A stretch of DNA of 33,113 nucleotides, taken from Acidimicrobiia bacterium (lineage in GTDB: Bacteria; Actinomycetota; Acidimicrobiia; Acidimicrobiales; MedAcidi-G1). Of this stretch, positions 10,677-14,684 are shown piece by piece. Numbering within the stretch: position 1 is the stretch's first letter; each line of letters starts with the position of its first letter. A program made the position numbers and the translations under genes. The stretch spans positions 1 through 33,113 of the forward strand of contig DQOF01000139.1 in assembly GCA_015658775.1 (NCBI GenBank), read 5' to 3'. A model generated the notes under the pieces. The model was not told where the DNA came from. It saw nothing but the letters and a program-made list of their open reading frames with translations, and made no database searches.

Positions 10677-10752
10677 TGGCCGGTAGTTCAACTGGCAGAA
10701 CGCCTGACTTTGGATCAGGAGGTTGCAGGTTCGAGACCTGCCCGGCCAGCCA
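10677..10752 (+). tRNA. tRNA-Gln (anticodon TTG), CCA encoded
   Basis: TGGCCGG...acceptor pairs with CCGGCCA; anticodon stem CCTGA-CTTTGGA-TCAGG (TTG); T-arm GCAGG-TTCGAGA-CCTGC; G-CCA 3' end. Confidence 0.95.
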
Positions 10753-11770: not shown

Positions 11771-13048
11771 CTACTCGAGGGTCGCGTACTCGACCGCCGC
11801 GCCGGTGGCTCCGCCCCTGACCTCGTCTGAGGCCTCCTCCAGGTCGACCAGGAAGTCGTCGACCGCCATGGCGTTGCCTGCGCTGACAGTCAGGTGCAGG
11901 CTCGGCGGGGGGCCCAGCCGGTCGAGGTGCCAGCCCCGGGCAGCCAGGGCCTCGCCCAGGGCGTAGGGGTCGATACGCCGACCGGCCTGTTCGCCGGTCG
12001 GATCGACGGCCGGGTCGGCCGAGATGGCCAGGAGGTGGTGTACGGGATCACCCAGCACGGTGAGCCCCTCGATGGTCTCCACGCACGCCCTGATGCGGTC
12101 GGCCGTGTCGAGTGTCGTGCGCACCAGCCGCCTGTAGCCGTCTACGCCCAGGTACTGGAACACCGCCCAGGCGGCCGCCATCGGTAGGCCGGACCTGGTG
12201 CCCTGCAGGTTCGGGGTGACGTAGCGGCCGCCCAACCAGCCGTCGAAGTCGAATGTCTGCCAGCGCCGAAGATCACGGGACCCGTGCAGGATCACTGACA
12301 CGCCCTTCGGCGCGTATCCCAGCTTGTGCAGGTCGGCCGAGATCGATGTGACACCCTCGACCCGGAAGTCCCACAGCGGCGCGGGCCGCCCCTCCATCTC
12401 GGCGAACGGCAGGACGAATCCGCCCATGCAGGCGTCGACGTGGCAACCGGCTCCGACGCCGGCGGCCATGGCGGCGATCTCGGCGACCGGGTCGACGAGG
12501 CCCTGGGGGTACTGCGGGGCGGAGGCCACGACCAGTGCCGTGTCGGGTCCGATGGCGTCGGCCATGGCATCCAGGTCGGCGGTCCAGTCGGCGGTGACCG
12601 GAACGGTCCTGGTTCGCAGGCCGAACAGGTGGGCGCCCTTGTGGAACGCCGCGTGGGCGCTGATCGGCAGAACCAGTTCGGGGTCGGTGACCCCCCGCTC
12701 GTGGCGTGCCCTCTCCCTCGCCGCCTCGACTGCGCACAGGATGCTCTCGGTGCCACCGCTGGTCAGGAAGCCGGCGGCGTCGGGGCCGTTCAGCAGTTCT
12801 GCCGTCCAGCTACAGACCTCGGCCTGGATCGAGCCCAGTGAGGGGAAGGCCAGGGTGTTGAGGGCGTTCTCGTGGAGGTACATGATGGCGGCCTCCTCGG
12901 CGACCGCCCTCACATCCTCCCCTCCGTCGAAGACGAGGGAGAAGGTGCGCCCATCGGCCCACCTGACGTCGCCGCCCCTCTTCTCCCTCAGGTCGGCGAG
13001 GATCTCGTCGGGGGTGCGGCCGACCATCGGCAGGGGGAGAGTTCCCAT
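11771..13048 (-). CDS. PLP-dependent group II decarboxylase/aminotransferase-fold enzyme, sphingosine-1-phosphate lyase-like
   Basis: FLTSGGTESILCAVEAARERA, HAAFHKGAHLFGL, HVDACMGGFVLPFAEM, SISADLHKLGYAPKGVSVILHGSRDLRRWQTF (PLP Lys). Start MGTLPLPMVGR at 13048; the ORF-track 602-aa extension is not supported. Confidence 0.85.
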   Translation of the reverse strand: MGTLPLPMVGRTPDEILADLREKRGGDVRWADGRTFSLVFDGGEDVRAVAEEAAIMYLHENALNTLAFPSLGSIQAEVCSWTAELLNGPDAAGFLTSGGTESILCAVEAARERARHERGVTDPELVLPISAHAAFHKGAHLFGLRTRTVPVTADWTADLDAMADAIGPDTALVVASAPQYPQGLVDPVAEIAAMAAGVGAGCHVDACMGGFVLPFAEMEGRPAPLWDFRVEGVTSISADLHKLGYAPKGVSVILHGSRDLRRWQTFDFDGWLGGRYVTPNLQGTRSGLPMAAAWAVFQYLGVDGYRRLVRTTLDTADRIRACVETIEGLTVLGDPVHHLLAISADPAVDPTGEQAGRRIDPYALGEALAARGWHLDRLGPPPSLHLTVSAGNAMAVDDFLVDLEEASDEVRGGATGAAVEYATLE

Positions 13049-13055
13049 CGGGCCG

Positions 13056-13065
13056 ATATTAGGGT
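13056..13065. promoter_or_regulatory. Overlapping divergent -10 boxes: TAATAT (minus, 13061-13056) and TAGGGT (plus, 13060-13065)
   Basis: 24-bp gap between divergent ATGs at 13048(-) and 13073(+); each -10 lies 7 nt from its ATG and the two share 2 bp. Confidence 0.6.
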
Positions 13066-13072
13066 TCGACCC

Positions 13073-13576
13073 ATGGCTGAGATGAACCGGCGCACCAGAG
13101 TATTCAGTTTCCCCAACCCCGTCGACGAGGTGTCGGCCCGGTTGGTCGCTGCGGGTGTGGTCGGCCTCTGCCTGCTCTACCTGGTCACCGGATGGGGACC
13201 GCTGCTCCTCGTGCTGTCCTACGGCTTCCTGGCGAGGGTGGCTTCCGGGCCGACCCTCAGCCCGCTGGGCCAGGTCGTGACCAGGGTGATCCGCCCGCGT
13301 CTGGCCTGGGCGGTACGTGACGCTCCCGGGCCACCCAAGCGGTTCGCCCAGGGAATCGGAGCCGCACTCTCGACCGGTGCGGTCGCGGCTTGGCTGCTGG
13401 GCCAGACGGGGACGGCCCAGGTCCTGGTCTCGGCCATCCTGGGCGCCGCCTCGCTGGAGGCATTCGTCGGTTACTGCATCGGTTGTCGCCTGTTCCGACT
13501 GCTGATGGGAGCCGGCCTCATAGACGACGCCATCTGCGAGGCCTGCAATGACATATGGGACAGAAGCCGGGTCTGA
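13073..13576 (+). CDS. DUF4395 family membrane protein
   Basis: PNPVDEVSARLVAAGVVGLCLLYLVTGWGPLLLVLSYGFLARVASGPTLSPLGQVVTRVI...FVGYCIGCRLFRLL: DUF4395-like with CxxC motifs (CIGC, CEAC). Confidence 0.8.
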   Translation: MAEMNRRTRVFSFPNPVDEVSARLVAAGVVGLCLLYLVTGWGPLLLVLSYGFLARVASGPTLSPLGQVVTRVIRPRLAWAVRDAPGPPKRFAQGIGAALSTGAVAAWLLGQTGTAQVLVSAILGAASLEAFVGYCIGCRLFRLLMGAGLIDDAICEACNDIWDRSRV

Positions 13577-13598
13577 CACCGATTCCCGTCTACATCGG

Positions 13599-13619
13599 CT
13601 GAGAGGCAGGATCTCTCAG
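13599..13619. other. Perfect 7-bp inverted repeat CTGAGAG-GCAGGAT-CTCTCAG upstream of prs
   Basis: Exact inverted repeat with 7-nt loop in the prs 5' region; possible terminator/attenuator or operator. Confidence 0.55.
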
Positions 13620-13703
13620 AACCCGTGTGCCCGGTCGGTAGCGGGGGTCGTACACTCGGTTCTCGGCACGTTCAACGGACCTACCACGAGGGATCGCCGA
13701 CGC

Positions 13704-14684
13704 ATGCAACTGGTCACGCACAAGAAGCTCTATCTCGTGTCAGGCCGGATCAGCCGACCGCTCTCCGAGGCCATCGCCGACGAGATGGGCGAGACCCTCG
13801 GTGAGCCGAACATTACCGAGTTCGCCAATGGGGAGATCCACTGCAGGTTCTCCGAGTCCATCCGCGGCAGCGACGTGTTCATCATCCAGACCCACGCCCA
13901 CCAGAACGGCTCGTCCATCAACGATGCTCTGATGGAGCAGTTGATAATGATCGATGCCGCACGCCGGGCATCCGCCAAGCGCATAACCGTCGTGTGTCCC
14001 CACTACGGCTACGCCCGTCAGGACAGGAAGGCGTCGGGCCGCGAGCCGATCACGGCGAGCCTGGTCGCCAACCTCTTCAAGGTGGCGGGGGCCAGTCGCC
14101 TGGTTGCCATCGACCTCCACTCGGGCCAGATCCAGGGCTTCTTCGACGGCCCCGTCGACCACCTCACAGCCATGCCTGTACTGGTCGAGGGGCTCAGCTC
14201 GTTGAAGGGCGACCTGTCCATCGTGTCGCCCGACGCCGGTCGGGTGAAGGTCGCCGAGCGCTACGCGATGCAACTCCATGCCGACCTGGCCATCGTGCAC
14301 AAGAGGCGCAGCCACACGGGGTTCAAAACGGTCGAGGCCAAGGAGGTGGTGGGCGACGTCGCCGGCAGGGTGTGCGTCATCGTCGACGACATGATCGACA
14401 CGGCAGGCACAGTCTGCGCCGCAGCGGAGCAACTCGTAGACCGGGGTGCGGAGAGGGTCATAGCCGCAACCACCCACGGCCTCTTCTCCGGACCTGCCCT
14501 CGAGCGCTTGACAGCCTCGCCGATCGAGAAGGTCATCGTCACAGACACCCTTCCGCTACCCGACGGCATCGACCCCGATTTCATCGAGGTGCTCTCCGTG
14601 GCACCTCTCATCGCCAGGGCCATCGGTGCAGTGTTCGCCGACACATCGGTCAGCGAGATCTTCGGCGGCGAGAACCTCTCCTGA
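13704..14684 (+). CDS. prs: Ribose-phosphate pyrophosphokinase
   Basis: LYLVSGRISRPLSEAIADEMGETLGEPNITEFANGEIHCRFSESIRGSDVFIIQTHA...VVCPHYGYARQDRKASGREPITASLVANL...VIVDDMIDTAGTVCAAAEQL. Confidence 0.96.
   Translation: MQLVTHKKLYLVSGRISRPLSEAIADEMGETLGEPNITEFANGEIHCRFSESIRGSDVFIIQTHAHQNGSSINDALMEQLIMIDAARRASAKRITVVCPHYGYARQDRKASGREPITASLVANLFKVAGASRLVAIDLHSGQIQGFFDGPVDHLTAMPVLVEGLSSLKGDLSIVSPDAGRVKVAERYAMQLHADLAIVHKRRSHTGFKTVEAKEVVGDVAGRVCVIVDDMIDTAGTVCAAAEQLVDRGAERVIAATTHGLFSGPALERLTASPIEKVIVTDTLPLPDGIDPDFIEVLSVAPLIARAIGAVFADTSVSEIFGGENLS

Follow-up and report, generated by a model that had tools for sequence, protein, structure and literature searches.

The 24 bp lying between a divergent pair of genes, one for an enzyme of the sphingosine-1-phosphate (S1P) lyase family and one for a DUF4395 protein, very probably form a conserved bidirectional promoter from which both genes are transcribed as leaderless mRNAs, with hardly any further regulatory DNA, judging from the arrangement of the sequence and its conservation. 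The locus was analysed within a 33,113-nucleotide stretch of an Acidimicrobiia bacterium genome (the window). The lyase ATG occupies 13048-13046 on the minus strand and the DUF4395 ATG 13073-13075 on the plus strand, and the TA at 13060-13061 is common to both -10 boxes, read on opposite strands (Table 1). The gap, both hexamers, the 7-nt spacers and the shared TA had been described in an initial annotation of this DNA, and the description is exact to the base.

Table 1. Features of the lyase/DUF4395 locus (positions in the window).
Feature	Position	Strand	Basis or remark
PLP-dependent enzyme, sphingosine-1-phosphate lyase family, 425 aa	11771..13048	-	Pfam Pyridoxal_deC 1.2e-18; 3mad
Whole intergenic gap, read as a single putative bidirectional promoter	13049..13072	both	Inference from -10 positions
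-10 box TAATAT, lyase gene	13061-13056	-	Sequence; 7 nt before ATG, spacer CGGCCCG
-10 box TAGGGT, DUF4395 gene	13060-13065	+	Sequence; 7 nt before ATG, spacer TCGACCC
DUF4395 protein, 167 aa, hydrophobic, CxxC motif (YCIGC)	13073..13576	+	PF14340, 2.5e-31
prs, ribose-phosphate pyrophosphokinase	13704..14684	+	Conserved neighbour downstream of DUF4395; start set by homology

The gap and its flanking genes

The gene calls of the initial annotation, S1P-lyase-like and DUF4395, hold by the matches to 3mad and PF14340. The best solved relatives of the lyase are S1P lyases (e.g. 3mad, E 1e-92), and the only named relative found is an uncultured Ilumatobacter protein with 66% identity. To the right of the gap the gene order is DUF4395, prs, rplY and an mfd-type gene. 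Between DUF4395 and prs lies a perfect 7-bp inverted repeat (CTGAGAG-gcaggat-CTCTCAG, 13599-13619), possibly a terminator or a leader element of prs.

Inspection of both sides of the gap revealed no TTGACA-like -35 element at 17-bp spacing (GAGAGT at 13037-13042; CATCTC at 13084-13079 on the minus strand), and neither spacer holds a convincing Shine-Dalgarno sequence. Given the first -10 box, the reverse box costs one extra base, an A four positions upstream; because that one base suffices, the overlap by itself is weak evidence, and the case rests on conservation together with dependence on the partner gene. Two other readings of the gap were rejected. The T-arm-like GGGTTCGACCC suggested a tRNA or other RNA, but the sole ARAGORN hit is a tRNA-Gln at 10677-10752, and 12800-13900 gave no Rfam match; as a palindromic operator, GGGTTCGACCC is not conserved in G015 or G010.

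Leaderless signal and conservation of the two boxes

TANNNT before ATG or GTG was scored near coding starts in 0.75 Mb of the host genome, with genes called by codon usage; the host-genome statistics as a whole cover 0.75-0.94 Mb of the 2.0-Mb draft assembly. In-frame starts preceded by TANNNT at spacings of 6, 7 and 8 nt numbered 57, 44 and 23, against 0-4 out of frame per spacer, so that 124 of 629 genes, roughly one in five, carry a leaderless-type box. The in-frame enrichment is confined to ATG and GTG and does not extend to TTG, CTG, ATC or ATT, and TAGGGT ranks second in frequency among the leaderless hexamers. TANNNT located 6-8 nt before a start is thus a real signal of leaderless genes in this genome, and it matches the TANNNT published for leaderless genes of Actinobacteria, some 12 bp ahead of the start (PMC3160421). 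Leaderless candidates stand on both sides in nine of 84 divergent pairs sampled from the host genome, and the lyase/DUF4395 pair is the only one in which the boxes overlap.

An A at -16 or at -6 of a leaderless promoter creates a reverse -10 box sharing the TA. Such an A was found at -16 in 7/156 and at -6 in 1/156 of the host promoters (loci L062-L141 and L193-L212 and the window), compared with 7.7% and 2.5% of all TANNNT of the genome. Avoidance of reverse boxes at leaderless promoters was considered and set aside as not clearly specific, since all TANNNT show a similar, milder deficit.

The divergent pair is present in nine genomes of two genera, namely the window genome and eight members of genus g5 in the same family. 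In all nine, reading towards DUF4395, exactly 7 nt separate ANNNTAGGGT from an ATG or GTG, a lyase box (TATTGT, TATGGT or TAATAT) precedes the lyase start position by 6-7 nt, and both boxes with the shared TA are kept. The box is still there in G031, where the DUF4395 frame looks broken. These genomes are related and three of the eight g5 members are near-identical, so the counts are not independent and no combined probability is given.

The alignment of the gap in relatives, proposed in the initial annotation as a check, was run and revealed an invariant shared element beside diverged four-fold sites of the lyase. Identity at those sites is 41-56% when the window is compared with the eight other genomes with the divergent pair, and among seven distinct ortholog sequences only 19 of 150 four-fold columns are invariant, none of them A or T. 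Among seven distinct gap sequences, the columns of the A and of TAGGGT (seven defining bases, four of them A/T) are invariant, and the box interior and the spacer vary, as -10 elements would lead one to expect. This conservation against saturated four-fold sites, together with the positional enrichment in the host genome, weighs against the view that chance TA-containing motifs fell into a short gap and that the true promoters lie inside the flanking genes; each motif has only three fixed bases, which favours chance, yet we consider that explanation highly improbable. When the g5 gap sequence was searched for in 298 genomes of the order, scattered matches turned up in 111 of them at up to two mismatches, and zero-mismatch matches were confined to the loci already known in G010 and G015.

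One observation at the lyase side is awkward for leaderless initiation. Five g5 genomes (L040/G031, L042/G027, L050/G041, L052/G043 and L055/G023) have ATC at the position of the expected lyase ATG, 6-7 nt after TATTGT, and two of them, G027 and G031, possess the divergent pair. No ATG, GTG or TTG was found between the promoter and the conserved lyase core in these five loci; in G023 a canonical start is first reached 63 codons further on, and there is a TGA in the same frame just upstream. Translation of leaderless mRNA may begin at a non-canonical AUC at these five loci.

The two putative promoters with and without their partners

Each side of the gap was also compared with loci where the partner gene is missing or different. 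Of 30 DUF4395 loci, 20 have a leaderless box, and the reverse box occurs in 7/7 of those paired with the lyase versus 0/13 of the other leaderless DUF4395 promoters. DUF4395 genes elsewhere in the order, lacking a lyase neighbour, display TA(G/A)GGT-N7-GTG. The lyase box is found in 28 of 30 lyase loci; lyase genes elsewhere have their own TANNNT without overlap, and the reverse box appears in three of 17 lyase promoters lacking an overlapping leaderless partner (G041, G042 and G011). Centred on the lyase promoter of G011 (L038, about position 1486) is an inverted repeat of 42 bp, perfect but for one pair: GGTTGCCCATCCGACGAACCTAGGCTCGTCGGATGGGCAACC.

These comparisons bear on the idea that only one of the promoters is real, the other -10 box being there through symmetry alone, with its gene expressed by other means. 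A single extra A makes the reverse TANNNT, and the reverse box exists without DUF4395 in G041 and G042, which favours this idea. The non-paired DUF4395 and lyase genes, however, each use their own box, so each direction is independently supported, and TAGGGT-N7 is invariant in the nine genomes; we therefore regard a single promoter as unlikely. In four genomes (G041, G042, G043 and G023) prs adjoins the lyase gene and DUF4395 was not found; the reverse box is kept in G041 and G042, and the T at -7 is lost in the other two. Its persistence in G041 and G042 after loss of DUF4395 may mean that the conservation is partly inheritance or serves another transcript (prs).

A second partner was found in genus g2 (L056/G012 and L058/G007), where the lyase TAGGCT-N6-ATG shares its TA with the TAGGTT-N7-ATG of a lipoprotein-like gene, and the shared-TA configuration has therefore probably arisen more than once.

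The initial annotation had proposed face-to-face leaderless promoters, the upstream DNA of each being the coding sequence of its partner, and the genome-wide signal and the conservation bear this out. On the bidirectional reading, the gap would be a promoter of the sigma-70/SigA type with a central TA common to both -10 elements, and the housekeeping RNA polymerase (the presumed holoenzyme) would load in either orientation. If the initial T of each box is -12, transcription is predicted to start near 13072 on the plus strand and near 13049 on the minus strand, a separation of 23 bp, or else at the A of each ATG. Two outward leaderless mRNAs would result, leftward for the S1P-lyase-like enzyme and rightward for DUF4395, with putative starts and translation from the 5' end. 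At ordinary basal rates simple joint expression would be most likely, with no switch, and our default reading is that two weakly transcribed genes are expressed together.

The initial annotation went further and proposed mutual exclusion working as a compact either/or switch. Polymerase exclusion follows from the geometry; the switch is held unsupported, because no activator was found and competition at basal activity is absent in the E. coli precedent. In a switch, polymerase bound in one orientation would silence the opposite gene, the balance being tipped by a regulator or by physiological state. Simultaneous binding to overlapping boxes is sterically impossible, and strong activation of one direction represses the other at E. 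coli bidirectional promoters (PMC12825309); the overlap is, moreover, kept in nine genomes. In all five E. coli promoters tested, on the other hand, basal activity was too low for competition: a weaker promoter in one direction brought no gain in the opposite one, and repression appeared once one side was activated (PMC12825309). Here coding sequence occupies both upstream sides, and a search that was not exhaustive found no operator, no adjacent regulator gene and, in the gap alignment, no conserved motif beyond the boxes. No functional opposition of the two genes is known, and DUF4395 is often lost where the lyase stays. We thus consider a switch improbable and retain joint expression.

Comparison with known systems

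A search of the open-licence literature found no description of such a shared-TA promoter with two leaderless genes, which is weak evidence of novelty. We put forward, as a tentative and rather doubtful extrapolation, that minimal bidirectional promoters joining two leaderless genes through a common TA make up a class of their own, with about 24 bp as all the DNA between two proteins; the lyase would have joined it at least twice (with DUF4395 and with the g2 lipoprotein-like gene), and polymerase exclusion would set the product ratio. A conserved pair with two leaderless messages and only two fused -10 boxes between the genes would be near the smallest possible divergent promoter, and a clean test case for the effect of polymerase exclusion where regulators are absent; should joint expression be all that results, the locus would still extend a known promoter type neatly.

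Leaderless genes of actinobacteria (PMC3160421; M. tuberculosis map, PMC3898074) resemble the predicted ones described here in box, spacing and share of genes, but they are usually described singly, whereas here two boxes are fused. The lysG/lysE divergon of M. tuberculosis (PMC5648196) is likewise a divergent pair with overlapping promoters and has one leaderless transcript; unlike the present locus, it has a 108-bp gap, an inverted repeat and a LysR-type regulator, and a second promoter, separate from the first, gives its leaderless start.

In its likely working the gap resembles the bidirectional promoters worked out in E. coli (Warman et al.; PMC12825309), which share with it a pseudo-symmetric -10 region read on both strands, with mRNA on both sides (predicted here). 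Their start separations are 7-25 bp, with 18, 10 and 23 preferred (PMC12825309), and the separation of 23 bp predicted here from the -10 positions is one of these preferred three. To judge by its sequence features, the gap belongs among bidirectional promoters. The E. coli promoters are described with -35 elements and regulators, whereas no -35-like sequence is present here; the predicted features of this variant are two leaderless mRNAs and a promoter that fills the whole gap, leaving no other intergenic DNA.
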